Below, piece after piece: positions 2,279 to 27,564 of a stretch of 27,564 nucleotides of DNA. The stretch is from a virus. Under the pieces are notes generated by a model. The model was not told where the DNA came from. It did no database searches and worked only from the letters and a program-made list of their open reading frames with translations. Made by a program: the position numbers and the translations under genes. The DNA lies in the IMG/VR virus record IMGVR_UViG_3300049726_000281, positions 1 through 27,564 of that record; one strand, written 5' to 3'. How positions within the stretch are numbered: position 1 is the first letter of the stretch; each line of letters opens with the position of its first letter.

Positions 2279-5200
2279 TTAGCTGACAATCGTTCCGGGG
2301 CTCAACTGAAGACTGGTGAGCTCGCGCCGGTTCGCGTTCGATTTCGTCGCGGCCATGGAGGCGCTCTGCACCAGGCGCGGGTTGTTGGTGATGGCCTGAA
2401 CCGCTTGGCCCTGGAGCAGGGCGGTCGTGGCGGGCCCGTCGAGTTGGATTACCAGCCCGCCACCGGACGGAGTGCCGGCGCCGATCTGGTCTAGGCCGGG
2501 CAGGCCTCCCAGCGCCGGAAGCGGGGTGCCGTTGTTGTACTGCGGCGACTGGAACAACGACCCGCCCGTCTCGACCAGCGACAGGGGCGTCACGGTGCCG
2601 GGCATGCCGGTCGTCTTCTGGCCGGTGGTCATGGCGTACAACTGGATCAGGTCGCGGATCTGGGGCGAGCGGATCGCCATGTCGATGTTGCCACCGAACT
2701 CGGATTTGGTCATATCCACGATCTGCTTCAACACGCCCTTGTCCGCGATATCGACCCCGTAGAGCGCCTTGATCTTGTCCTTCGTCTTCTCTGTCGCGCC
2801 CTTCACGAACAACCGCACGATGCCCGCGACCGCTCCGGCGATGCCACCGATGGCCGCACCAAGCGGACCGCCGAACTTGTACCCGATCAACGCGCCGCCC
2901 GCCGTGGTCTCCGCGACACCGAGCTTGCCACCGCGCCGAAGACCGTCCATCGCGAGCAGAGCGCCACCCATGAGCGCGGCGTCCGATTTGCCGAGGGCTT
3001 GCAGCTTGTCGCCAAACGATCCGTACTGGCCGATCCAGCCTCCGGTGGCCATGCGCCCGCCACCCATATCGACCCACTTGTTGTCGCCAAACCCGAAGAA
3101 CGACTTGAGGCCCGGCAACATGCCAGCCAAGCCCGCCTTCGAGAAGATCCCTCCGGCCGCTGGTGCGGCGCCCATCCCAGCACCGCCTCCGGACGAGGAC
3201 GGCACGAACGGCGGCGTCCCGCCCACCGCCGCGCCGGGGAAGAGGGCGTTCCCGCCCGATCCGAAGATTGGAGGCAGGATCGTCCCCAGACCACCGCCGC
3301 CACTGCTGCCGGGAACGAACGGAGGCGTTCCGCCAGCCGCGCCGCCCGCAAACGCCGGGACCGCGCCAATCCCGAGGAGGCCGCCCAACGTGCCGAAGAT
3401 CCCGCCCCCAGCGCCCTTGCCGACGCCGCCCTGCTGCATCTGCACGTTCGCGCCGGGGACGAACAGGTTCATCAGCATCGCCGCCACGCGCGAGGTCACG
3501 ACGTCCTTGATGGCGGTAAGCAGCGCGGTCTTGAGCGAGTTCCCGATGGCCGACCACACCGACTGCGACTTGGTCACGAGAGCGTCGAAGACGCCGCCAG
3601 CCTGCTGCTTGAGCGATTGGAAGATACTCTGGTACTGGTCCGTCACCAGCTTGCGCGTGGACGTCGCGCCCTTTACCTGCGCAACGTCGATCTCCGTGGT
3701 GGTGGCCTTCTGGAGCGCGTCCCTCTCGTGCTGGCCCAGTTCGCGGATCTTGTTGCCGATCTGGTCGAGATAGGGCTCGTAGAAGATGCCCTGCGCCATC
3801 GCCGCCTTCTTCGCCTCGTCCACCTGGCGTTCCGTGCGGGCGTCGATCTCCTCCAGTTCGATCCTGGTCCGCTCTTTCATGGCCTGGATCTCGATGGCGG
3901 TCTTGGCGTTCTCCAGCGCGACCTTGTCCTGAAGCGTACGCGCGTCCACCGACTCCAGTTGGGCCAGTTGCAGATTCTTCCGTTGCTCGACCGCCGAAAT
4001 CGCCGCCGAACGGCCCTGGTCCTCGATCTTGTCCTGCCACTCACCCGTCTGTTGCCAAACGTACAACTGCTGTTGGAAGGGCTTGATGAACCATTCCTCG
4101 AAACGCTTTTGAGACCGGGAAGCAAGCGCCTTCATCATGGCGTCGGTGCGGCGCGCCTCCTCCTCGTTGAACCGCATGTCGAACGCCGCGATCTTCTCCG
4201 CGGTGCCCGTGTGAATCCGTTCCAGCGCGGCCGCGCTCAGCGCCACCTGCTGAACCACCCCGCTCTTTTCATCGACGCGCGTGGCCATGCGCTCGATCTC
4301 GCGCTTTTCCTCCTCGCGGATCTTGGCGACGCCAGCGGTGCGTTCCTGCATTGACAGCAGCACCACGTTGAGCGATTCCTTCGCCGCCTCCGTCTCCGAC
4401 GACGTGGCCTCGATGATTTTCATCGAGTCCTCGATGCGGGCGCGCGCCATGTCGTGCTCCGCGCCCTTGCGGTCCTCGACAGCCCGCATGTAATATTCCT
4501 GGCTGGTCTTCTCGGCCTGCAGCCGTGTTTTCCGATCCGCCAGCATGCGGTCGAGCTCCGCGTCGGTCGGTTCGTGCTTTGGCTTCTCCGGAGCCTTCCT
4601 GGAATCCAGCGTTTTGAGATAGTCGATGATGGTGTCCTTGGTAGTCTTCGGCGGCGTCATGCCACGCTGAATCCACCACTCCGGCGTCTCCCGCAACCGC
4701 TGGTTGATCTTCTTGATGGCCTCTGCTGTGGTGTCGAGATTCTTGTTGCCCTGAGCGTGTTCGAGTAGCTTGTTCCCGGCCCACCAGACCGCCAGGCCGG
4801 CCGCAACCGGAGGGATCAACCGTGCGACGGCGGCGAGCGCGACCTCCGCGCCCACCAATGCGCCGGTCAAGCCGTTACTGATCGCGAAGGCAACGGTCCT
4901 GATCATGGCGATTCCGCCCATCATGGCTTCGAATCCAACTGCCGCCACCTTGAACAGCCTCATCGCCACGGTGACCGTGCCCAGCGCGGCAGCCAGAACG
5001 AGGACGCCCTCGGCAAACTTCACCACCAGAGTCGAGTTGTCCTTCAGGAAGCCGACGAGTTCGCGCAGGTGGCCGACCCACTCCTTCAGGAGCCCCTGGA
5101 ACTGCGATCCGACCGCTTCCCTCAAGCTATCGACATCGCGGCCCAGCGCTTCTGTCTGTTCCTTCAAGCTCCCGGTTTGCGCAGCGGCCGAGCCCTGTAG

Positions 5201-5887
5201 TTTCGTCGCCTCCCGCATGATCGCGGCGCGCCGAACCTCATGAATGTCGTTCTCGCTAAGCGTCTTCCCGTGCAGTTCAGCCAGTTTCTGGGCTCGCTCC
5301 GTCTCTTTGTTGAGATCGACGAAGATCCGCAACTCCCTCAGCCCGCGACCGCGCCCGGACTCAATCGCCGTGATGATCTGCTCCAGCGCCTCGCTCGCCT
5401 TCAACCCGGAAGTGCTGACCGCGGCGGCATCCTTGGCGACCTTCGCGAGACCCTCCGCTTTTTCGAGGCTCAGATCCGCGATGATCATCTTCTGGACAGC
5501 GCCCTCGGATTCGGCCATCGTGAAGCCGATCCTCTTGATGGCCTCGACCACCTTCATCGCGGCCTCTTCGCTATCGCCGTGCCGCTGCGCCAGCGACTTC
5601 GTCACCACCTCCATGCGCTCAGTATTGGCAGCGTACTGCGCCGCCCCGATGGTCCACTCCCTCGCCCAGTCCAACGCCCTCTTGATCGAGTCCGCGAGCA
5701 GGTTGCCAGCAGTAGCGCCCTTGACCATGCTGGCCGTCATGCCGTCGATCCCGGCAGACGCGCCCCGCGCAGCCTTCCCCGCAGCCTGCTCCATGCCGGA
5801 CAGACCGGTGTTGACGCTCTTGATCGAGGCGTTCGCCTTGTTGACGTCCACCTCGACGACGAGTTCAAGCTTATTATCGGCAGCCAT
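2279..5887 (-). CDS. Tail tape measure protein
   Basis: At 1202 residues this is the longest gene in the window and sits where lambda H sits. The N-terminus (MAADNKLELVVEVDVNKANA) is typical of tape measures: short beta strands, then helices. Residues about 280-375 contain several hydrophobic, probably membrane-active segments (LVVKFAEGVLVLAAALGTVTVAM, given here only as an example region). A long charged coiled-coil region follows to about 760. The C-terminal third is Gly/Pro/Ala-rich with a repeated GGTPPFVP block, then more hydrophobic helices. Tape measures fix tail length and pass into the tail lumen. No strong ribosome site precedes the ATG. A plus-strand gene now separates it from the chaperone gene that normally lies immediately upstream. 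Other long frames over this gene are shadows of its GC-rich codons. Confidence 0.93.
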   Translation of the reverse strand: MAADNKLELVVEVDVNKANASIKSVNTGLSGMEQAAGKAARGASAGIDGMTASMVKGATAGNLLADSIKRALDWAREWTIGAAQYAANTERMEVVTKSLAQRHGDSEEAAMKVVEAIKRIGFTMAESEGAVQKMIIADLSLEKAEGLAKVAKDAAAVSTSGLKASEALEQIITAIESGRGRGLRELRIFVDLNKETERAQKLAELHGKTLSENDIHEVRRAAIMREATKLQGSAAAQTGSLKEQTEALGRDVDSLREAVGSQFQGLLKEWVGHLRELVGFLKDNSTLVVKFAEGVLVLAAALGTVTVAMRLFKVAAVGFEAMMGGIAMIRTVAFAISNGLTGALVGAEVALAAVARLIPPVAAGLAVWWAGNKLLEHAQGNKNLDTTAEAIKKINQRLRETPEWWIQRGMTPPKTTKDTIIDYLKTLDSRKAPEKPKHEPTDAELDRMLADRKTRLQAEKTSQEYYMRAVEDRKGAEHDMARARIEDSMKIIEATSSETEAAKESLNVVLLSMQERTAGVAKIREEEKREIERMATRVDEKSGVVQQVALSAAALERIHTGTAEKIAAFDMRFNEEEARRTDAMMKALASRSQKRFEEWFIKPFQQQLYVWQQTGEWQDKIEDQGRSAAISAVEQRKNLQLAQLESVDARTLQDKVALENAKTAIEIQAMKERTRIELEEIDARTERQVDEAKKAAMAQGIFYEPYLDQIGNKIRELGQHERDALQKATTTEIDVAQVKGATSTRKLVTDQYQSIFQSLKQQAGGVFDALVTKSQSVWSAIGNSLKTALLTAIKDVVTSRVAAMLMNLFVPGANVQMQQGGVGKGAGGGIFGTLGGLLGIGAVPAFAGGAAGGTPPFVPGSSGGGGLGTILPPIFGSGGNALFPGAAVGGTPPFVPSSSGGGAGMGAAPAAGGIFSKAGLAGMLPGLKSFFGFGDNKWVDMGGGRMATGGWIGQYGSFGDKLQALGKSDAALMGGALLAMDGLRRGGKLGVAETTAGGALIGYKFGGPLGAAIGGIAGAVAGIVRLFVKGATEKTKDKIKALYGVDIADKGVLKQIVDMTKSEFGGNIDMAIRSPQIRDLIQLYAMTTGQKTTGMPGTVTPLSLVETGGSLFQSPQYNNGTPLPALGGLPGLDQIGAGTPSGGGLVIQLDGPATTALLQGQAVQAITNNPRLVQSASMAATKSNANRRELTSLQLSPGTIVS

Positions 5888-5966
5888 GCTGTTGGCGTTA
5901 GACTATGGTGAAGGCAGCGCGAAACTGCCTTGAAAAGAAGCAGAGCCACGCCAAAGGAGAGGGTCC

Positions 5967-6023
5967 ATGGAACAAAAGGGCTTCGCTGCGAAGTCCCCCT
6001 GCCGCTGGCTCTCGAACGAGTAG
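5967..6023 (+). CDS. 18-residue leader ORF before the zinc-motif gene
   Basis: An ATG at 5967 is preceded by AAAGGAG, the best ribosome site near the plus-strand gene. It opens an 18-codon frame (MEQKGFAAKSPCRWLSNE) that ends in TAG at 6021-6023. One GCT codon later, in the same frame, comes the ATG of the six-CxxC gene, whose own upstream site is weak. It may be a leader that couples translation to the next gene, or the former N-terminus split by a nonsense change. No evidence shows that it is translated. Confidence 0.4.
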   Translation: MEQKGFAAKSPCRWLSNE

Positions 6024-6026
6024 GCT

Positions 6027-6533
6027 ATGGGCTATTGTCCCTACTGCAAACATCAAGTTGCGCCCCGGACGGAAGTCTGCCCTGGTTGTGGCAACACTTG
6101 GTTTCAATTCAAGACTGGAGCCAGAACGAAGACAGTAGTTACCACCAGATGCACAAGCTGCTGGAATCGTGGCTACACGGACCAACACGAGAACAATAGA
6201 TGTCCTGCCTGCAACGGAAAGGCGAAACGGGACGGATTCTGGAGCACCTGGATCTGCGAATCTTGCGTTGGTAGTGGTTGGATCTCCTCGACAAAGCGCG
6301 TAACGTGTAGCCAGTGCCAGGGAAAAGGAACTGTTTCAGTCACCCTTGAATTCGTCCAGTGGGTTGACACCCGCATTTGCGTAGCGACATGGCATCAGAA
6401 GTATCATGGGCATCCTGATCACCGTGGATCTCTGAATCAGCAGGAAATCGATGGCGTGGTCGAGACGCAAATGCCCTTGATAAGTGACATAGATCCAGAA
6501 TGGGCACAGCGCGTGAAAGACGCGGTTTCCTGA
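6027..6533 (+). CDS. Zinc-ribbon / DnaJ-type cysteine-rich protein (phage cargo gene)
   Basis: A 168-residue protein with six CxxC pairs at C4/C7, C18/C21, C42/C45, C59/C62, C77/C80 and C94/C97. The first two pairs form a zinc ribbon (CPYC, CPGC). The last four resemble the DnaJ cysteine-rich domain repeat CxxCxGxG (CTSCWNRGY, CPACNGK, CESCVGSGW, CSQCQGKG). The C-terminal 60 residues have no cysteine and are unrecognised. It runs against all neighbouring genes, between the tail chaperone and the tape measure, and its GC (lines counted by hand at about 53-57%) is lower than the flanking tail genes. It looks like a moron gene. A zinc-dependent protein-binding or chaperone-adaptor role is possible but not shown. 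No J-domain is present. Confidence 0.75.
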   Translation: MGYCPYCKHQVAPRTEVCPGCGNTWFQFKTGARTKTVVTTRCTSCWNRGYTDQHENNRCPACNGKAKRDGFWSTWICESCVGSGWISSTKRVTCSQCQGKGTVSVTLEFVQWVDTRICVATWHQKYHGHPDHRGSLNQQEIDGVVETQMPLISDIDPEWAQRVKDAVS

Positions 6534-6593
6534 ACGCCGATCACGCGAACAGTCATGCGCCTCGATCCCTAGAGGAGCCAAGCAAGATAACCT

Positions 6594-6926
6594 TCATCGT
6601 CTTGCTCCGCTTAACTTTTCTCTCTCAAGAATGTCTCGCTCTTCGGCGACGATCAGCATCGCCTGGAACTCGTCCGCGCGAATTTCGTCTAGGCCGATGT
6701 GAACGCCCAGTTTCAGCGCGCTCATCAAGTCGAGAGCGCGGCGGATGAGCAGTCCCTTCTCCGCGCATTGGGCGGCGTCCAGCCGGTCGAGTGGGCAGTG
6801 GTCGCAGCGCTGGCCGTCCTCTTCCGGTGCATCGGGGCACAGGCCGGGATCGCACAGTTCCTCCCGGCGCAGTGCCCAATGCACTAGGAACCGGAACGAC
6901 GGATCATCCGGCCACTCCCCCGCTAA
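6594..6926 (-). CDS. Tail assembly chaperone extension (T part of G-T), reached by -1 frameshift
   Basis: This frame continues the chaperone gene at 6923-7534 after a slip of -1 at its last sense codon. The zero frame reads ACT TTT TAG; slipping back one base in the run of five T gives TTT TTA GCG and opens 110 more residues (LAGEWPDDPSFRF...). No ATG, GTG or TTG lies near the start of this frame, and its codon use and sequence look coding. The extension contains a cysteine cluster (ELCDPGLC, RCDHC, QC) and a helical C-terminus. In lambda the analogous G-T fusion binds the tape measure and recruits tail tube subunits. The full fusion would be about 313 residues. Confidence 0.72.
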   Translation of the reverse strand, partial: LAGEWPDDPSFRFLVHWALRREELCDPGLCPDAPEEDGQRCDHCPLDRLDAAQCAEKGLLIRRALDLMSALKLGVHIGLDEIRADEFQAMLIVAEERDILEREKLSGARR

Positions 6927-7534
6927 AAAGTTGCGTCGCGGTCCTCCGCGAATGCGGTGTCCATCGCGTCGATGGCAGCCTTCACCGCGACCGCTTGGTG
7001 GATGATGGGCACCTCGCCGGCGTATCCCTCGGTCGAGGTCGCGAGCTTCTTGTAGAGCGCCGCGGCGGACCCGATGTTGATGGTCACCTCCTGCCGGCCA
7101 AACGGCATGTCGAGCAGCCGCGCGAAGCCTCGTCGGTACTCGAACACGTCCTTGGCCGAGGGCATCTTCAGCAGGTGGACGGTCGTCGCGCCCAGGACCC
7201 GGAGAGTGACCTTGAACGCGTCGCCGTCCGGAACTACATCGTCCACTTCCGCCAGGCTCAACTGCTCGACCACCTTCATGGCTTCGAAGGCATCGACCTC
7301 CGGGTCCTCGCCGTCGCGGATCTTGGCCAGGAGTGTGGCGTCCACGTCTTCGCCGTTGGCGACGGTGGTCTCGGAGATGCCGCGTCCCAACTGCTTCACC
7401 TGCACCTTGCGGCGTCGCTGGCGTCCGATCCATTCGTCATCGGACGGAAAACGGACGCGGACGGACTTCACGCCGCCCGGAGTCCGGAGGTTGATTGCGA
7501 TGGGCCTACTCGCGTCGAATACTGGGGTTTCCAT
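6923..7534 (-). CDS. Tail assembly chaperone (G-like)
   Basis: A 203-residue protein from the ATG at 7534, chosen because AAAGG lies 9 bases upstream; an in-frame ATG at 7543 overlaps that site. It sits between the tail tube gene and the tape measure, the position of lambda G. The N-terminus is a beta domain with a basic stretch (WIGRQRRRKVQVKQLGRG), followed by helices. It ends in ACT TTT TAG, where a -1 slip would make the longer G-T form. The product should coat the tape measure during tail assembly and be absent from the virion. The family call is by position and frameshift architecture. Confidence 0.75.
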   Translation of the reverse strand: METPVFDASRPIAINLRTPGGVKSVRVRFPSDDEWIGRQRRRKVQVKQLGRGISETTVANGEDVDATLLAKIRDGEDPEVDAFEAMKVVEQLSLAEVDDVVPDGDAFKVTLRVLGATTVHLLKMPSAKDVFEYRRGFARLLDMPFGRQEVTINIGSAAALYKKLATSTEGYAGEVPIIHQAVAVKAAIDAMDTAFAEDRDATF

Positions 7535-7548
7535 GGGTTTCATCCTTT

Positions 7549-8589
7549 CTATTGGCAGATAGCGTCCACATTGCACTTCGCGACCGCCGTGATGATGCCG
7601 TTGGTCGCGTCGTAGATCGGGGTCGCCTCCACCGCGACCGTAACGATCTGGTCCGTCTCGCCCACTTCCGCCGTGGCGAATGCCACCTTCTGCCACGTGA
7701 TGTCGAGCGAATTGTTGGTGTCGAACTGGAGGTGCATCACCGCCGTGCCGGTGGTCTGCGCCTTGAGCAACGTCAACTCCGTGGAGTTGTGGTCGAAGCG
7801 GGCGACGAACTTGAGAGCGCCCGCCCGGTTGCCGAATTCCAGCCTGCCTCGAATCGCGCCGGTGGTCGCATCGCCCGACGTCTGGAAGCCGGAGCCAGGA
7901 TAGAAGCCCGCATCCATGCGGATGTTGTTCTTCCAGGACGTTTCGAGCGAGACGATGTTCTTGCTCGTCACGTAGTCAACGCCGTTGATCGTGAGCGTCA
8001 GTGACGCGGACGGCAGGAGCTTCTCCACCGTCGCGGCGGGCATGGTGATCGCGGAAGGCTCCGTCAGTTTCCCGCTGCCGTGGAACTCGACGTTGATCTT
8101 GCTGTTGGCGCGGCCCGGCCCGGAGCCAATCGAGATCGTCCATCCCTCGACCGCGCAACCGGGCATCAGCCGGTCGATCACGGAGCCGGCACCCGGGCGG
8201 ATCTGCTCCACGAAGGAGAAGTACGGCAACTCCGTCGCGTCGCCGTTCGCCGGGATCAGCGGAGTGCAGGTGTAGATCCAGTTGGGCGTCGTGCCCGACT
8301 TCACGACCTTGCCCAGCCCGAACGTCATGGCCCACGCAGCCATCTCCGCGCTCAGGTACTTTTCGAGCGTGCCGCCCGTGTCCCAGGACGTTTTGAACGT
8401 CTGGGTCGCGAACTCATGGCCCTTGCCATACTCCTCGGCGTCGTTCTCCGTGTTCAGTTTCGGGTTTGCGAGTTGGGCGTTGAGCTTCTTCAGGCGCCAC
8501 ATCGCCGCGACCAGATTGGCGGTCGCGATATCGGTCTGCTTGCCGAAGCCGAAGCAGATCAGTACTTCTTGCAGTCTAGTCGTCGACAT
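7549..8589 (-). CDS. Major tail tube protein
   Basis: A 346-residue protein whose ATG is preceded by AGGAGG at 9 bases. It begins with a conserved-looking segment (MSTTRLQEVLICFGFGKQTD) and is rich in beta strands, Thr and Gly, ending in a strand-rich domain (TDQIVTVAVEATPIYDATNG). This suits a tail tube subunit that polymerises around the tape measure (lambda gpV role). It is longer than lambda gpV, so an extra domain is likely. It lies between the tail terminator-like gene and the chaperone, as expected. A function other than the tube is unlikely in this position. Confidence 0.8.
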   Translation of the reverse strand: MSTTRLQEVLICFGFGKQTDIATANLVAAMWRLKKLNAQLANPKLNTENDAEEYGKGHEFATQTFKTSWDTGGTLEKYLSAEMAAWAMTFGLGKVVKSGTTPNWIYTCTPLIPANGDATELPYFSFVEQIRPGAGSVIDRLMPGCAVEGWTISIGSGPGRANSKINVEFHGSGKLTEPSAITMPAATVEKLLPSASLTLTINGVDYVTSKNIVSLETSWKNNIRMDAGFYPGSGFQTSGDATTGAIRGRLEFGNRAGALKFVARFDHNSTELTLLKAQTTGTAVMHLQFDTNNSLDITWQKVAFATAEVGETDQIVTVAVEATPIYDATNGIITAVAKCNVDAICQ

Positions 8590-15349: not shown

Positions 15350-17236
15350 CTACTCCGACTCCTCGGCCTCCGTCGGCAACGGGATGAGTCGGTCTTCCTC
15401 CGAAAGACGGAGCCGGACGTACGCATCTGCCTCTGGCGGAACATTCCCGTCGGCCACAATAATTTGAAGCGTGTCCCCGAGCTCTTTCGAGAGGGCGATC
15501 AGATACTTATATGCGTGATGCACACGCTCCAGGTCGTATCCCTCTTGGCCAACATTCGTCGTCAAGCCGTCGATCATCAAGATGTTCGGCAACGCTAGGC
15601 CCAGTTGTATCGCCGTCTTCTGATGGGCAATTGCGTAGGCGACGTTTACAAGTGTCTGCAATCCTTGCGAACTGAGATCGTCAAATCTTCTGCCGTCGAG
15701 AATGGGGAGATATGTCTTGCGATCCAGGGCGGAGCGGGGTTGTTCAGAAAACCGTGGGACTGCCAGCGTCCTTAGACTGCCCTCGAAATTCTCCTCGAAT
15801 ACCTTGATTCGTTGTTCTGAGACATCCTGCCGAGTCTTCAACACCTCCAACGTTCCTTCTAACTCGCCCTTTTCGAACTCAAGACGCGTGCGCTCTTCAG
15901 TAACATTATCTAGCTTGTCGTACAGTCGCAAGTAGTCTTCGAGTCGCGTGATAAGCGCTAACGCTGCTGGCCGCTCGCTGGCGGTCCGCGCGATAGCAGA
16001 TGCCGAGTCCGATACATATGTGTGAATCTTGAAGTCGAGCTCATGGGCGGCCCGTTCTCGCTCTCTCCCTAGGTCGATGAGACGGCGTTCTAAGCTTCGA
16101 GCCGACACCTTGTGAGATTCCAAAAGCTCCTCGGTCTCTTCGATCTGAGCTGCTACCCGATCCTGCTCGCTTATGAAATCCTTGCGATCAAGCATGGGCG
16201 CTGGAACTTGTAGGCAGAGACTGCACACGTCCGGATCAGTGCGACTCTCGTCCATTGTCGCTCCGCAACGTGGGCAGAGGATGAATTCAAAATCGGTGAG
16301 ATATGTCTTCGCGATGATAGTCTTGGTCAGCCGTTTACTCTGAGAGCCCAACTGCTTGATTAGTCGGTTCAACTGCTCTACGCTCCCCACTTCACGTTCA
16401 GTCTCAACCTGTGCCCAAGCGATTTGTTCATCGAGTCGCAACACCTCAGACCCAAGAACCTGCACCTCGTCCGTTCCCTTTGCTGTTTCATTCGCCTGAA
16501 CTGCACGCTCCTCGATCGCTGCGAGATTGCTCCGTGCTCCGTGTAGCTGCTCAATTAGCACCGCTCGATTCTCCCAGGGTGTGCCGGCAAGAATCCGTTG
16601 AAAGCTAGACTCCTGCGATGCGAGCTGCCCGAGTTCCGTGTTGACCTGGTGGAGACGTTCCTGTACACGGTAGACATCCGCGCTGTAGATTCCGTAAAGC
16701 ACCTCAAACACGTACTTGCGCTTCACATTCTTGAACGGATCCCGATGTCCGAATACGCTGTTGTCTATTGTCTCCTGGGACAACACACAATAGAGAAAGA
16801 AGTCGTTAATCGATACGGGCGTTAGATCGCTGTCGGGACGGGACGGAGCCGACGGGACCCGCAGATCAGGTAACCCGAGGGTGCGAAGAAGCCACTGCCC
16901 GTAGGTGTATGGGGCAGATGCATCAACGACGAGAGCAGGAAGTCGGAGGGCAGCTCCGAGCCCCGAGATGTCTATCTTCGCGTTCTTTGTTGTCGTGAAA
17001 GGCCGTACGACGGAAAACTGATGGTCTCCGAGGACGAGTCGGCCGCCAATCGCGGCAACGTGTTGTCGCACCTCAAGCGGAAAGTTCTCCAAGCCGGTTC
17101 CGAAAAGCCCGTGACAGAGCCGGATGAGGGTCGTTTTGCCAGAAGCAATGGGACCGGTGATTATGTTCAGCCCTGGTGAGAACTCAACATCTCTCTTCGT
17201 CCCGATCAGTTGAATACTTTCAATCCGCGCTCTCAT
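15350..17236 (-). CDS. SMC-like ABC ATPase of a Lamassu / ABC-three-component defence operon (LmuB-type)
   Basis: A 628-residue protein from the ATG at 17236, which overlaps the preceding stop codon (ATGA). Residues 28-36 are a Walker A motif (GPIASGKTT) right after a short beta strand, as in SMC/RecF ATPases. Coiled-coil arms flank a zinc-hook-like pair, C321-P-R-C324 and C338-S-L-C341. The C-terminal head has a signature-like segment SSQGLQT near 522 and a Walker B strand NILMID ending at D556. Residue 557 is Gly where ABC ATPases usually have the catalytic Glu. In Lamassu the SMC-like subunit senses invading DNA and releases the nuclease. The region's GC is visibly lower than that of the phage genes. 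A different SMC-like DNA-repair ATPase is the alternative, but the three-gene context argues against it. Confidence 0.85.
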   Translation of the reverse strand: MRARIESIQLIGTKRDVEFSPGLNIITGPIASGKTTLIRLCHGLFGTGLENFPLEVRQHVAAIGGRLVLGDHQFSVVRPFTTTKNAKIDISGLGAALRLPALVVDASAPYTYGQWLLRTLGLPDLRVPSAPSRPDSDLTPVSINDFFLYCVLSQETIDNSVFGHRDPFKNVKRKYVFEVLYGIYSADVYRVQERLHQVNTELGQLASQESSFQRILAGTPWENRAVLIEQLHGARSNLAAIEERAVQANETAKGTDEVQVLGSEVLRLDEQIAWAQVETEREVGSVEQLNRLIKQLGSQSKRLTKTIIAKTYLTDFEFILCPRCGATMDESRTDPDVCSLCLQVPAPMLDRKDFISEQDRVAAQIEETEELLESHKVSARSLERRLIDLGRERERAAHELDFKIHTYVSDSASAIARTASERPAALALITRLEDYLRLYDKLDNVTEERTRLEFEKGELEGTLEVLKTRQDVSEQRIKVFEENFEGSLRTLAVPRFSEQPRSALDRKTYLPILDGRRFDDLSSQGLQTLVNVAYAIAHQKTAIQLGLALPNILMIDGLTTNVGQEGYDLERVHHAYKYLIALSKELGDTLQIIVADGNVPPEADAYVRLRLSEEDRLIPLPTEAEESE

Positions 17237-17751
17237 AGCGTTTGTCCCCAAGAGCTGTTGACGACTTCGGGAAAATGCTGATAGATGAAATCCTTCAGCC
17301 AACTTCCACTCTTATCGAAATGCGTCTTAAGCAGTTTCACGGCTCGGGCGGCGTCTTGCCACGGTTCGGTCAACGCGATCCGAGACGCTAGGCGTTGACC
17401 TGTGGACGTAGCGCGGTACCCGATTCCCGTTGCCGTTGGGACGGGAACGACGAGGCCTCTTCCTATCAGGCTTCCGAGAATAGCGAAATATGCGGGGTCC
17501 CAAGGTCCGTACCTGTAACGCAGCATCCGCGTTTCAATGGTTTCGTCGATCTCCGAAGATTGAGGAAAAATGACCTTCGGAACATGTATAGAAAGAGCCC
17601 GCTGTAGGAAGGAAGGGTACCGGAGAAGAAAATCTAACTTCGCGAGTTTCGTGCGGCCCTCCAGGCTGTTCTTGGATGTGGTGAATGCATTGATCAACAG
17701 CAGCAGACGAGCTTCGCCCTCGGCCGTCGGCTGAAACAGTTCCTTACGCAT
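17233..17751 (-). CDS. Middle component of the ABC-three-component / Lamassu operon (LmuC-type)
   Basis: A 172-residue protein from the ATG at 17751, overlapping the upstream nuclease gene by 8 bases; it overlaps the ATPase gene by 4. An in-frame ATG at 17802 lies deeper in the nuclease gene and is less likely. The sequence suggests a winged-helix protein: helices LLLLINAFTTSK and RTKLAKLDFLLRYPSFLQRA, then MLRYRYGPWDPAYFAILGSL and a C-terminal wing and helix. This KLDFLLRYP-type N-terminus is characteristic of middle components in ABC-three-component systems, as I recall the family. It would bridge the ATPase and the nuclease. Confidence 0.78.
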   Translation of the reverse strand: MRKELFQPTAEGEARLLLLINAFTTSKNSLEGRTKLAKLDFLLRYPSFLQRALSIHVPKVIFPQSSEIDETIETRMLRYRYGPWDPAYFAILGSLIGRGLVVPVPTATGIGYRATSTGQRLASRIALTEPWQDAARAVKLLKTHFDKSGSWLKDFIYQHFPEVVNSSWGQTL

Positions 17752-18904
17752 CAGCGATCCCCCAGCCGGTTTGACACTTATCAGAGAGGTCACAGATGGC
17801 ACCTAGGAGCAGGTCGGGATCGTTTTGGAAGAGACCTTTGTTGTCGATAATTGGGTATTGCTGACCGAGCACCTGCAGCAATGCGTTCCATATCGCAGCG
17901 GCTGGCGCTCTTCCCGAGCCGTGTTCATTCACGAGACCGTGGGCTCTTATGAGTAGCCGCATCTGCACATTTTCGAGCGCACCATCCTCGTACATTTGAG
18001 AGGACAAGAGCTCATACTCACGTTGACTTGCATAAGCGCGTAATGTCTTAGCGTGCTGGATGATGTCCGGTGAAGCGCCCCCCATGATTAGCTTCTGCTC
18101 CAAGATCGTGGGAGGTTGTTCGTTGTTGTCGATGAGACGCTTCAGAAGCGGCTGGGGTGCGGCCGTTAGTGGCTGCACGATGGTTTGGAAATGCTCCCTT
18201 AACAACTGCTTCTGCAGGAAGAGGTTTTGGGCCTTGCCGCGAAGGACACCGCGCGTGAGGAACGTATGTTTCCAATTATGGGGGAGGACTTTGGCTTGCA
18301 TCGCCCCGTAGATCAACATCAACATACGGTCGTAGATCTCGTCCAATGCCGACGCGGGGAGGTGCCCCGCATGATTGACGAGCAAACGAGTGTTTTGTGC
18401 TTGAATGGTTTCTCGCGTTGGATATGAATGGACGATGCGAATGCGTTTGGCGAAGGCCCCGCATTCAGCGACGTCGATCTTTAAGGACTTCTCCAACTTC
18501 TCCAAAAGAGTGGCGTCGCACCGCCCATCTGCAGTTAGCAGCTTCTGCAGTAGATCTTTTTGTTGAACAGCTCCTTCAACGTGTAGCTCTAGGGTAGCTG
18601 GAAGAGAGTCGAGAATCCGGTGCGAGCGAAGGAGACTGTGCAGCCCTCCGCCTTTGGCTGTGAGGTCTCTTAACTTCCAGGGCCCCCTCTCAAGGTCCCG
18701 TGTTTTGATCTGGAGAAAACGCCAGCCCGTGTTGAATTGAACGGCGATATCTTCGATGTGCTCGGCTACGACGCACACTACGTCGCCGCCAAGGGCGCAA
18801 TTTAGACAGAACGGAAAGGCAATATGGGCTTGGTAGCAGTATCGCTCAAACGTGACACGCCCAGAGTCGTCAGAGGGAAGAAGCTGCGAGGCGTCAGGGG
18901 GCAT
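17744..18904 (-). CDS. Cap4/DUF4297-type dsDNA nuclease effector of the Lamassu operon (LmuA-type)
   Basis: A 386-residue protein from the ATG at 18904. An upstream in-frame ATG at 19036 would add 44 residues that do not look coding. The N-terminus is a PD-(D/E)xK nuclease of DUF4297/Cap4 type: GRVTFERYCYQAHIAF, then acidic residues E48/E51/D52 (AEHIEDIAVQF) and the core strand with Q65-I-K67 (FLQIKTRD). Cap4 nucleases are effectors in CBASS and in Lamassu. The rest is helical and probably contacts the middle component and the ATPase. It is the first gene of the three-gene operon. No convincing promoter is visible in the 246 bases before it. The nuclease call is from motif pattern. Confidence 0.82.
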   Translation of the reverse strand: MPPDASQLLPSDDSGRVTFERYCYQAHIAFPFCLNCALGGDVVCVVAEHIEDIAVQFNTGWRFLQIKTRDLERGPWKLRDLTAKGGGLHSLLRSHRILDSLPATLELHVEGAVQQKDLLQKLLTADGRCDATLLEKLEKSLKIDVAECGAFAKRIRIVHSYPTRETIQAQNTRLLVNHAGHLPASALDEIYDRMLMLIYGAMQAKVLPHNWKHTFLTRGVLRGKAQNLFLQKQLLREHFQTIVQPLTAAPQPLLKRLIDNNEQPPTILEQKLIMGGASPDIIQHAKTLRAYASQREYELLSSQMYEDGALENVQMRLLIRAHGLVNEHGSGRAPAAAIWNALLQVLGQQYPIIDNKGLFQNDPDLLLGAICDLSDKCQTGWGIADA

Positions 18905-19150
18905 AGAATGAGCTTCACTAGCGTGGCCCCGGCGCGCTGTTCGGTAGCCACGACAAGCAATCTTCGCCAGTATCCAGTTTAACCGCATTTGCGAGGGCCG
19001 TGGAGGAGGACACGTTTTTGATGTTCCGATGGGCACTTCGTGACTCGCACTTTCCAGCGTTGACCGTCTCGGACAGATGGTCCACAGTCGGCATTCTGGC
19101 GAATCGGTTTCGACTGGTCGGCAAGGGTCTAACGAACCAAATCGGCAACT
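18905..19150 (-). other. Spacer between gpW-like gene and defence operon
   Basis: This 246-base stretch separates the phage joiner gene from the inserted operon. It must hold the left junction of the insertion and possibly the operon's promoter. No clear -35/-10 pair, terminator, or direct repeat shared with the other junction (15181-15349) was found by eye. Short open frames here look like chance. Confidence 0.5.
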
Positions 19151-22904: not shown

Positions 22905-24149
22905 TCATGCCGCGACACCCAAGCGCTCTGCGGCGACGTCCGCAAACGTCCGGCCGTCGGCTTCGAGTGTGGCCGTCTTCCCGCTGAAGTCCATGAATCG
23001 CCGGCAAACGACATCGCAGTACCTCGGCTCCAACTCAATCAACCGCGCCTGACGCCCTGATTTCTCGCACGCGATCAGCGTCGTTCCCGACCCTCCGAAG
23101 ACGTCAAGAATCGTGTCGCGCGTCTTGCTGCTGTTGCGGAGTGCATGCTCTACGAGTTCGACCGGCTTCATGGTCGGGTGCTCCAGATTCGCCATGGGCC
23201 GCTTGATGAACCACACGTCGCCCTGGTTCCGGTCGCCGCACCAGAAGTGATCCGTGCCCTTGCGCCACCCGTACAGGATCGGTTCGTACATTCGTTGGTA
23301 GTCCGACCGGCCAAGCGTGAAGTGGTGTTTCGCCCAGATCACGAACGTGGACCAGTGGCCTCCCGCGTCCGTAAACGCCTGGTAGAGCGTGTGCAACTCA
23401 GACGAAGACATGCAGACGTACATCGCGCCTTTGCAGACCGCCAGCATGTTCGCGCACGACTCGCGCAGGAAGTCGTAGAACTTCCCGCCGAGCGCGTCGT
23501 TGCCGATCCTAAGCTTCTTCGCGGTCTTGCCGACGTAATCGACGTTGTAGGGCGGGTCCGTGAAGACCATATCCGCAAGCCCGCCGGCCAGAACCGTCTG
23601 AATCGCCTCCATGCTGGTCGCGTCGCCACACAGCAGGCGATGATCGCCCATCACCCACACGTCTCCGGGCACTGTAACCGCGTGCTCCGGCTCGTCGGGA
23701 ACGGCATCCTCGTCCGTGAGGCCCTCGCGAGTCTCCTCCGGATCGCGTAGGATCTCCTCCAGTTCCTCATCCGAAAAACCGACCAGATCGAGATCGAAGC
23801 CATCGTCCTGAAGGGCGTCCAACTCCACGCGCAACATCTGTTCGTCCCATCCGGCACTGAGCGCCAGGCGGTTATCCGCGAGAACGAGCGCGCGCCTCTG
23901 CGTCTCCGAGAGGTGATCGAGCACGATGACCGGCACCTCGGCCATCCTGAGCTTGCGCGCCGCGGCCAAGCGCGCGTGGCCGGCAATAATCACGCCGTCG
24001 GCGCCCACGAGAATCGGGTTCGTCCAGCCAAACTCCACGATGCTGGCGGCGACCTGGGCGACTTGCTCGTCGCTGTGCGTCCTGGCGTTCCTGATATACG
24101 GCAGGAGGCGATCCACGGGCCACTGCTCGATCTGGAGATCCGTTCTCAC
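22905..24149 (-). CDS. ParB-like domain fused to DNA methyltransferase (DPPY type, probable N6-adenine)
   Basis: A 414-residue protein from a GTG that overlaps the upstream stop (GTGA). Residues about 1-135 are a ParB/sulfiredoxin-like domain (PYIRNARTHSDEQVAQVAAS, GVIIAGHARLAAARKL). The catalytic part has motif IV DPPY at 198-201, then HPTMKP at 324-329 and motif I DVFGGSGTT at 349-357. The order IV before I marks a beta-class enzyme, and DPPY suggests N6-adenine methylation. ParB-methyltransferase fusions are common in phages. The enzyme would modify phage DNA, probably against host restriction. No restriction endonuclease is next to it. Its ParB half resembles that of the neighbouring gene. 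Confidence 0.9.
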   Translation of the reverse strand: MRTDLQIEQWPVDRLLPYIRNARTHSDEQVAQVAASIVEFGWTNPILVGADGVIIAGHARLAAARKLRMAEVPVIVLDHLSETQRRALVLADNRLALSAGWDEQMLRVELDALQDDGFDLDLVGFSDEELEEILRDPEETREGLTDEDAVPDEPEHAVTVPGDVWVMGDHRLLCGDATSMEAIQTVLAGGLADMVFTDPPYNVDYVGKTAKKLRIGNDALGGKFYDFLRESCANMLAVCKGAMYVCMSSSELHTLYQAFTDAGGHWSTFVIWAKHHFTLGRSDYQRMYEPILYGWRKGTDHFWCGDRNQGDVWFIKRPMANLEHPTMKPVELVEHALRNSSKTRDTILDVFGGSGTTLIACEKSGRQARLIELEPRYCDVVCRRFMDFSGKTATLEADGRTFADVAAERLGVAA

Positions 24150-25711
24150 GAAGCCTTCCTTTTGCGTGGGCCGTAGTAGGGGTTGGGGCCGTTGTGCTTG
24201 ATTGCACGCGCGTCGTTCTGCCTCGGATTCAGTACCTGGTCTGCCGGGACGCCGCGAGACTCCGCAACGGCTGCGAAGGTTTCGCCGGTGGCTGCGAGGA
24301 CCGGCGTGTCGCCGGTCAAGTTCGTGACCCGGCGGACGATCACGTCGCAGTAGGCCGGGCTGATCTCGCAGCCATAGCCCCTCCGGTCGAGCAACGCCGC
24401 CGCGGCCATCGTGCTCCCGCTTCCCATGAAGGGGTCGTAGGCCACGTCTCCGGCGTCGGAAAATGCCTTGATGAAGAATTCGGGCAGCGCTCGAGGGAAT
24501 GGCGCAGAGTGCGATCCCTGAGTGCTCTCTGTTGTAGCCTCGATGACGTTGCTCGGCCGCGCGAGGCCCTCATGCCTGCCGTCCATCAGTTTGCGGCGCA
24601 TGTGGCCCCATCCCTGCGATCCCTGTGGAGGCAAGGAGGCTGCTGCCCCACGCGGGCCCGTCCCCAGCAGGCCGCTCCCAGATCGGGATTTTGGATTGTC
24701 TGGCGAGTAGTCGAAACAGTCCTCCGACACGTGGCCTACTGCCTCAGGCCGGAACTTGATCGATTGCTGCCGGCAAAAGTGAAAGATCGGCTCCCAAGCG
24801 TTCTTGAATCGGTTTCCCCAGCCGCCCGGTACGCCGTTATCGGTCTTGCGCCAGCAGAATTCATCGACGAATCGCCAACCCCACTGCCGCCGGTGCGCGA
24901 TTACGAGGTCCTTCACGTACAGATTACGCTCCCCTTCGTCGGCGTGCTCCTTGATGTTGAGGAAGTAGGAGCCATCGGGCGCCAGAATCGACTGGACTCC
25001 GGCCGCAACCGCGCCGAACCACCCCACGTACTCGTCCGGAGGGATCGGCTCAAACCCGCTGGTGGGATCATACTCGCGCTGCGTCGCGTAGGGCGGCGAG
25101 GTCACGACGACGTCGGCCACCACATCGCCGAATAGAGCGCGAATGACATTCCCGTCGCGGCAGTCGCCGCAGATCAGGCGGTGGGCACCGATCAACCACA
25201 CGTCGCCGGTCTGGGTTACCGGCTGGGCTGGAGGTTCGGTGACCTCATCGGCCACATCCTGCGGCGGCGCGTCGCCGCCTTCGAGCAGCGCCTCCAGTTC
25301 CTCGTCGCTGAAGCCGACGACGGCGAGGTCCATGCCGTCCTTTTCGAGCTCGCGCAGTTCGGCGGCAAGGATTTTCTCGTCCCATCCGGCATTCATCGCG
25401 AGCTTGTTGTCCGCGATGATGTACGCCCGCCGTTGAGTCTCGCTGAGGTGGTCCAGCACCACCACCGGAACCTCCGGGAGGCCCAACTTGCGGGCAGCCA
25501 GGAGGCGACCGTGGCCGGCGATAATCCCATCCATCGAGTCGACGAGGATCGGATTGGTGAAGCCGAACTCAACGATGGACGCCGCGATCTGCGCTACCTG
25601 TTCGGCGGTGTGCGTGCGCGCGTTCCTCGCGTACGGCACCAGCCGGTCGGTCGGCCAGATTTCGATGCGCCGCGCCATCGCGGGCGTTATTGTCGCCGGA
25701 AGTGTCGCCAT
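24146..25711 (-). CDS. ParB-like domain fused to DNA methyltransferase (SPPY type)
   Basis: A 521-residue protein from the ATG at 25711. A GTG at 25810 and an ATG at 25678 are alternatives, and none has a clear ribosome site; the match to the paralogue begins near 25678. Residues about 12-140 are a ParB-like domain (PYARNARTHTAEQVAQIAAS, GIIAGHGRLLAARKL). Motif IV is TSPPY at 204-208 and motif I is DPFMGSGST at 426-434, a beta-class order. SPPY is typical of N4-cytosine enzymes and some N6-adenine ones. A long region between the motifs (about 330-400, Gly/Ser/Pro-rich) is probably target recognition. The C-terminus is basic (YYGPRKRKAS). It is tandem with, and paralogous to, the next gene. 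Confidence 0.88.
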   Translation of the reverse strand: MATLPATITPAMARRIEIWPTDRLVPYARNARTHTAEQVAQIAASIVEFGFTNPILVDSMDGIIAGHGRLLAARKLGLPEVPVVVLDHLSETQRRAYIIADNKLAMNAGWDEKILAAELRELEKDGMDLAVVGFSDEELEALLEGGDAPPQDVADEVTEPPAQPVTQTGDVWLIGAHRLICGDCRDGNVIRALFGDVVADVVVTSPPYATQREYDPTSGFEPIPPDEYVGWFGAVAAGVQSILAPDGSYFLNIKEHADEGERNLYVKDLVIAHRRQWGWRFVDEFCWRKTDNGVPGGWGNRFKNAWEPIFHFCRQQSIKFRPEAVGHVSEDCFDYSPDNPKSRSGSGLLGTGPRGAAASLPPQGSQGWGHMRRKLMDGRHEGLARPSNVIEATTESTQGSHSAPFPRALPEFFIKAFSDAGDVAYDPFMGSGSTMAAAALLDRRGYGCEISPAYCDVIVRRVTNLTGDTPVLAATGETFAAVAESRGVPADQVLNPRQNDARAIKHNGPNPYYGPRKRKAS

Positions 25712-25827
25712 TGGGTTACGAACTTCGAGAAATGCCGCCCCGTTCGCGCCCAGGTGCCCCGTGTCGCACCGGATGGCACCAGGTTGGCTGGTTGGCCCAC
25801 CCGCCGCCACGGGCGCGCCCTGGCCGC

Positions 25828-26892: not shown

Positions 26893-27564
26893 TCACGGCA
26901 CGAACTGCACGCCCTTGTCTGGCAAGCCCGCCGACTTGAAGATCCGCTTGAAAAAGTCCTCGGTCTGCCGAGCAAAATCTCGGCACAAGCTCATTGAAAT
27001 CCACACCTCCCGGCGCGCTACACTCCCGTCGGGAAAACGCAGTTTGCCGGGATATGCCAACAGCAATCGTTCGCGCTCTGCATCCAGGCCGGCCCATTTA
27101 CCGCCGCGGTGAGCAATCACATTTCGCAGCTTCTGCAGATTCTGAAGATGCGGCCAAGCCGGATCCTCCTTGACGGTCAGGGCAGCGACCCTTTTCAGAT
27201 AGAGCGCCGCGCGCTCGATCCCATGGCCGGCGGTGTCGTGCAATCCGAAATTCGAACCCCGCATGCGGCCAACCCGCTCAGCAAACGAGTCCAGCTGCGC
27301 TTCAACCGTCGAGTGGAGAAGGATAACGACAGAGTCTGCGGCCAGCGTCGGAATCCAGCGCCCAAACTTCTCGTCCAGGACCTGCCGTTCCACATCAAAA
27401 TCACCGAAGTCCCATTTCTGCTCCTCGGCCATTTCCTTGAGCGCCTGGCGCTCCTGCCGTTCCACCTCGGGGATGGCTTTATCCATGGCCTCCAAGAAGG
27501 CAGTCGTCCCCATAAGGCGTTCAAAGGTCTCGATAACCAAAGGATCAAATCGGATCTTGGCCAT
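26893..27564 (-). CDS. HEPN-domain protein, possible RNase or defence/toxin component
   Basis: A 223-residue protein whose ATG is at the very right edge. Helical throughout. Residues 147-152 read RNVIAH inside LQKLRNVIAHRGGKW, the R-x4-H motif of HEPN domains, many of which are RNases in toxin-antitoxin, abortive-infection or CRISPR-linked systems. An upstream helical region (ILLHSTVEAQLDSFAERVG) fits a HEPN helix bundle of the RiboL-PSP-HEPN sort. No antitoxin partner is seen downstream; one could lie upstream, outside the window. A non-catalytic HEPN is possible. Confidence 0.65.
   Translation of the reverse strand: MAKIRFDPLVIETFERLMGTTAFLEAMDKAIPEVERQERQALKEMAEEQKWDFGDFDVERQVLDEKFGRWIPTLAADSVVILLHSTVEAQLDSFAERVGRMRGSNFGLHDTAGHGIERAALYLKRVAALTVKEDPAWPHLQNLQKLRNVIAHRGGKWAGLDAERERLLLAYPGKLRFPDGSVARREVWISMSLCRDFARQTEDFFKRIFKSAGLPDKGVQFVP

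Follow-up and report, generated by a model that had tools for sequence, protein, structure and literature searches.

Why does a gene for a small, Cys-rich protein run against the tail operon of a phage, between two genes that are normally adjacent? The question is posed by IMG/VR record IMGVR_UViG_3300049726_000281, of which all 27,564 nucleotides were analyzed (hereafter, the window). The head–tail operon of the window lies on the minus strand and encodes a terminase, head–tail joining protein, portal, protease, decoration, capsid, major tail protein, chaperones, and tape measure protein (TMP). Among these names, only that of the head–tail joining protein derives from a family match; the terminase was recognized by tblastn, and several others follow gene order. 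The gene of interest, called the zinc-protein gene below, occupies a short cargo segment between the GT-type tail chaperone extension and TMP (Table 1). At approximately 6923–6950 on the minus strand, the preceding chaperone ORF ends with ACT TTT TAG, and GT continues through AAC TTT TTA in the other frame. This arrangement is consistent with a candidate G/GT-type −1 frameshift, as in HK97, by which the G chaperone is probably joined to GT.

Table 1. Features of the zinc-protein locus and of the second cargo, in window coordinates.
Feature	Position	Strand	Basis and remarks
TMP gene	2279..5887	−	1202-aa ORF, relatives; left border of cargo
Cargo segment, ~0.7 kb	5888..6593		Junction comparison; absent in empty-site relatives
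Dyad AAGGCAG-N7-CTGCCTT	5911..5931		Repeat search; upstream of leader ORF
Shine–Dalgarno (SD) region of leader ORF	5953..5962	+	Core AGGAG at 5955–5959; duplex energy −8.9 kcal/mol
Leader ORF, 18 codons, strong SD	5967..6023	+	Translation, SD energies, shuffle test
Zinc-protein gene	6027..6533	+	ORF and translation, 168 aa, orphan
Zinc-protein modules	Residues 4–21; 42–101; C-terminal 60 aa		Zn ribbon; four DnaJ-type Cys repeats; tail
GT-type tail chaperone extension	6594..6950	−	Right border of cargo; last codons replaced by cargo sequence
G-type tail assembly chaperone	6923..7696	−	ORF order; same G/GT order annotated in HK97
Lamassu LmuA, LmuC, LmuB (second cargo)	15350..19036	−	PADLOC; between head–tail joining protein and portal

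A Cys-Rich Protein Seen in One Phage

A preliminary description of the locus had reported a plus-strand gene with six CxxC motifs, opposite in strand to the tail operon, whose product combines a zinc ribbon with four DnaJ-like repeats but has no J-domain. The ORF and all six motifs (CPYC, CPGC, CTSC, CPAC, CESC, and CSQC) agree with that account, and shuffling the protein's own residues produced six or more CxxC motifs in just 4 of 100,000 trials. The layout holds as well, with the refinement that two of the repeats are degenerate. Repeats 3 and 4 are canonical CxxCxGxG, whereas repeat 1 reads CxxCxxxG and repeat 2 reads CxxCxGxA, so that the protein departs from the four CxxCxGxG units of a DnaJ/Hsp40 chaperone. 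Two Pfam families were matched below their gathering cutoffs, namely DnaJ_CXXCXGXG (PF00684; residues 77–107, E 7e-7, score 29.8 against a cutoff of 32.7) and Zn_ribbon_3 (PF13248; residues 3–23, E 3e-4). Pfam and NCBIfam revealed no J-domain with an HPD motif, PADLOC revealed no defense family, and none of the three revealed a toxin–antitoxin (TA) family. The only PDB matches were weak ones to DnaJ, and structure prediction from the single sequence was uninformative (pLDDT 45). The resemblance to the DnaJ zinc domain is thus one of Cys-rich repeats, with half of PF00684 matched; unlike DnaJ, the zinc protein lacks the J-domain and the client-binding C-terminal domains; its N-terminus bears an additional zinc ribbon, and its C-terminus is novel.

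No full-length relative was found in IMG/VR (searched with peptide words and a zinc-ribbon DNA pattern), among INPHARED phages, in 35 related viral records, or in 257 genomes of the order. The 297 genomes of the phylum yielded DnaJ and stand-alone Cys-repeat proteins without a full-length relative, and PLSDB plasmids yielded DnaJ only. GTDB contigs contained a single 100% identical copy, located in the same phage, with all other matches being to DnaJ-type repeats. By these comparisons the protein is new, having been seen nowhere else in the collections searched, while the kind of element that it represents is already known.

The Leader ORF

The preliminary description had further assigned the best ribosome site to an 18-codon ORF that ends in TAG one codon ahead of the gene's ATG, in the same frame, and had proposed a coupled leader, a readthrough-extended N-terminus, or a nonsense mutation. 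Both observations stand. The duplex energy of the leader SD lies in approximately the best 2% of random positions and resembles that of most phage genes, compared with −2.5 kcal/mol at ATG 6027, which is close to the random median. Translation gives, in one frame, the leader (5967–6020), TAG (6021–6023), GCT, and ATG 6027. When the upstream DNA was shuffled, an ATG-initiated mini-ORF with a strong SD that ended ≤12 nt from the gene start arose in approximately 0.2% of cases, or 2% if GTG and TTG starts were allowed. This test is post hoc, as it was chosen after the pattern was seen; with that reservation, the leader ORF is probably real.

Of the three readings, coupling of the leader to the zinc-protein gene by termination–reinitiation fits best. 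With initiation at ATG 6027, the product would open directly with the zinc ribbon (MGYCPYC), and a coupled leader is favored because the ribbon begins exactly there, which is the usual layout for such proteins. The stop-to-start distance of 3 nt would also suit reinitiation. The other two readings fared less well. They imply a gene that originally started at 5967 and has either decayed by a nonsense mutation at TAG 6021 or is extended by low-level readthrough of that codon. A common frame for leader and gene, together with a good SD that belongs to the leader, would be expected in that case, although a shared frame has a one-in-three chance of arising anyway. The direct succession of ATG 6027 and the ribbon, as expected for the fold, and the intact remainder of the ORF argue otherwise, as does a second record. 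PLEM01000027, a contig of the same phage binned in a Bryobacterales metagenome-assembled genome (MAG), has an identical leader and gene with the same TAG. Over 4,472 bp, only two SNPs, both outside the zinc-protein gene, separate it from the window, and a sequencing error at the TAG is therefore improbable. We regard a decayed or extended gene as unlikely.

The dyad upstream of the leader ORF is a possible candidate operator. A consensus scan found no sigma-70 promoter upstream of the leader ORF, and no terminator above chance was found for the zinc-protein gene; a terminator-like site on the minus strand (5981–5993) was itself within chance. RNA structure around the leader was no stronger than in shuffled sequences (z −0.23), and an attenuator or riboswitch-like leader was dropped on this basis.

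A Cargo Hotspot Between GT and TMP

The surroundings of the gene were compared among the best 80 viral-contig matches to the major tail protein, a nonrandom sample, supplemented by relatives of TMP. After removal of contigs duplicated between the searches, and with the window counted in, 68 contigs display both GT and TMP; eight pairs in the sample have identical tail-protein genes. The junction is empty in 30 of the 68, where GT terminates within the opening codons of TMP, and this overlap bears out the original impression that the zinc-protein gene splits two normally adjacent genes. In the other 38, the two genes are separated by 268 to 3761 bp. The borders are consistent among contigs, with the cargo abutting the TMP start codon and replacing the last few GT codons. 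The cargos comprise 17 unrelated types, including HicAB, Gp49/HTH, REase-ARP, nSTAND, TIR-TPR, DUF6883/DUF4926, and M48 families. TA modules form the commonest cluster (18 members, typed by members), and an OMP and a beta-propeller look like host-fitness genes rather than defense genes.

The tree of the major tail protein requires 18 changes between empty and filled junctions, with at least 10 gains or losses forced by well-supported branches. Five other cargos occupy the junction in the nearest relatives of the window (L002–L006, tail proteins 95–97% identical): a PIN-like toxin with an antitoxin, read from sequence (L002); REase-ARP (L003); a Gp49/HTH-type TA module, assigned by cluster (L004); two unnamed genes (L005); and, as a single cargo, a 1132-aa TIR-TPR protein (L006:10112-13510) that is likely an anti-phage sensor–effector. 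In L007, with a tail protein 94% identical to that of the window, the junction is empty. The GT/TMP junction is a cargo hotspot in the phage group of the window, which explains both the strand and the position of the zinc-protein gene.

The composition of the zinc-protein gene is foreign, with a GC3 of 0.56 versus 0.85–0.88 in phage core genes; the GC content of the cargo segment as a whole is 0.54, versus 0.62 for the window. A blastn search with the cargo flanks found no DNA shared with the cargos of other relatives, and hence no promoter cassette common to them.

Three cargos contain truncated duplicates of the TMP 5′ end (two each in L158 and L030, one in L055), which measure 87 to 308 bp and are 82–98% identical to the intact start. 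They suggest that new cargo may come in together with a TMP start, keeping one TMP copy intact; the window's own cargo contains no truncated TMP copy. Separately, the junctions of L042 and L046 carry a Cys-rich cargo on the opposite (minus) strand, whose product reads MTCPACG...CDCG before a hydrophobic stretch. The L042 protein, like the zinc protein, starts with a Cys motif.

Relatives of the tail protein were detected in 39 of the 257 genomes of Bryobacterales, the order of the MAG. Because some are embedded in contigs of 4–9 Mb, we take these relatives to be prophages. Their GT/TMP junctions are likewise empty or filled, with cargos that include TIR, YhcG/DUF1016, HicAB, PIN, HSDR_N-like, and AAA proteins. 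The best explanation is that the window derives from a temperate siphophage of Bryobacterales (Acidobacteriota).

A Probable Gene for the Lysogen

Given the location of the gene, its foreign composition, the empty or otherwise filled sites, their turnover, and the prophage relatives, we consider it likely that the zinc-protein gene is a moron in the GT/TMP hotspot of a temperate Bryobacterales siphophage, expressed during lysogeny by way of leader reinitiation. The junction is vacant in L007 and 29 other contigs, and in relatives it holds HicAB, Gp49/HTH, REase-ARP, nSTAND, TIR, YhcG, and PIN. In the lysogen, a dedicated promoter would drive plus-strand transcription of the gene. Ribosomes loaded at the strong site at 5953–5962 would read the 18 leader codons, terminate at TAG 6021, and, after a gap of 3 nt, begin again at ATG 6027. 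Once lytic growth sets in, late transcription would cross the gene in antisense and turn it off, as is proposed for phi80 TaiEcA. The product would be a small, soluble zinc protein whose Cys4 modules probably bind a protein or nucleic-acid partner. The negative promoter scan and the cargos that look like host-fitness genes count against the model, as does an opposite orientation that is common among cargos but not universal; in a hand tally of unrelated cargos, which used mechanical ORFs where a cargo had no family match, 17 main genes oppose the tail operon and 8 share its strand.

Lysogenic expression, lytic silencing, and protection or modulation of the lysogen are inferred from three precedents. 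The nearest, by analogy, are HK97 gp15 in terms of place and phi80 TaiEcA in terms of orientation. The HK97 annotation places gp15 between gp13/14 and the TMP gene, and gp15 is a superinfection-exclusion moron (PMC10883804). In each case, a temperate siphophage has a single small accessory gene inserted precisely where its frameshifted chaperone pair meets TMP. However, gp15 shares the strand of its tail operon and, at 62 aa, is predicted to reside in the inner membrane, whereas the zinc-protein gene is on the opposite strand and encodes a Cys-rich product preceded by a leader ORF; its translation contains no long hydrophobic stretch. TaiEcA (tail assembly interference, noncontiguous operon) is a defense gene that is divergent within a Q-controlled late operon, and its authors propose that late transcription switches it off in the lytic cycle (PMC11364771). 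The zinc-protein gene is similarly an accessory gene set against a late operon and could be silenced by late transcription. The likeness is one of orientation, and TaiEcA differs in being located upstream of the packaging module and in having demonstrated anti-phage activity, which for the zinc protein is putative. The third precedent, staphylococcal Tha/Ith, provides a comparable antisense switch (PMC11087260).

Since the zinc protein has neither an orthologue nor a defense-family match, any functional reading rests on location. Its location and neighbors make protection or modulation of the lysogen the most likely role of the protein, with superinfection exclusion as one example. We propose more tentatively, as a possibility, that the zinc-protein gene on its own encodes a new effector of anti-phage defense or superinfection exclusion, with expression restricted to the lysogen by opposing late transcription and the dose set by termination–reinitiation at the leader.

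Other functions were weighed against that of a lysogen-expressed moron. Residues 55–85 weakly match PHROG 6060 ("anti-termination protein Q-like", E 0.0037), and there is a weak match to an annotated Q protein, as might be seen for a Q-like antiterminator or RNA polymerase-binding regulator acting on the late operon that the gene interrupts. The PHROG match nevertheless covers the Cys repeat alone, at 31 residues rather than the full length, and the gene lies inside the tail operon, far from the late-operon start and so outside the location of a Q gene. All close relatives lack the gene, and their late operons must work without the zinc protein, making a regulatory role quite improbable. The prevalence of TA modules at the junction, such as HicAB and Gp49/HTH, raises the thought that the zinc protein belongs to a TA pair, as antitoxin or as the other component, and some antitoxins (e.g., MqsA) have zinc sites. 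We hold this to be very doubtful, as the 0.7 kb cargo fits only one long plus-strand ORF, which leaves just the 18-codon leader as a partner, and the protein matched no TA family. Lastly, a holdase-like zinc chaperone that assists TMP in tail assembly, which the DnaJ-type repeats adjoining the tail chaperone and TMP could indicate, is scarcely credible for a gene on the opposite strand that is foreign in composition, encodes no J-domain, is missing from relatives with a similar GT (88–95% identical) and TMP N-terminus (59–67% identical), and has its place filled by unrelated genes.

Acidobacteria prophages use the GT/TMP junction as a well-defined, anchored slot for many unrelated genes, a sizable fraction being defense or TA genes. 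As the same slot holds the HK97 exclusion moron, immunity genes of prophages may generally be lodged at this junction, which can be searched by means of its two flanking genes, even on short metagenome contigs. The hotspots of P2 and P4 prophages, which carry diverse anti-phage systems (Rousset 2022, PMC9122126), are likewise small, high-turnover loci between two conserved phage genes. They differ from GT/TMP in phage family, host phylum, and junction, and a defense role is putative for most GT/TMP cargo. Candidate anti-phage genes of the little-studied Acidobacteria phages would include the zinc-protein gene and the remaining unnamed cargos. In this soil Acidobacteria virus, the zinc-protein gene is probably one more passenger serving the infected cell.

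Other Features of the Phage

The window carries a second cargo, a complete-looking Lamassu system predicted to comprise LmuA (a Cap4-type nuclease), LmuC, and the SMC-like LmuB, with PADLOC E values of 2.5e-18, 2.8e-8, and 8e-84, respectively, and GC3 values of 0.58–0.61. LmuB is shared with L008 at 97%, and the GT/TMP cargo of L008 differs from that of the window. The joint between the joining protein and portal is nearly closed in L010 and L020 and spans 0.5–0.8 kb in L003 and L011; being nearly closed or differently filled in relatives, it represents a second cargo site.

At the edge of the record, a minus-strand protein (26893–27564) displays an RNxxxH-like HEPN motif (LRNVIAHRGGKW) and a weak PADLOC match to RTasHEPN (E 0.001). 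Also on the minus strand, two tandem ORFs at 22905–25810 resemble, as read from their translations, fusions of a ParB domain with a DNA methyltransferase.
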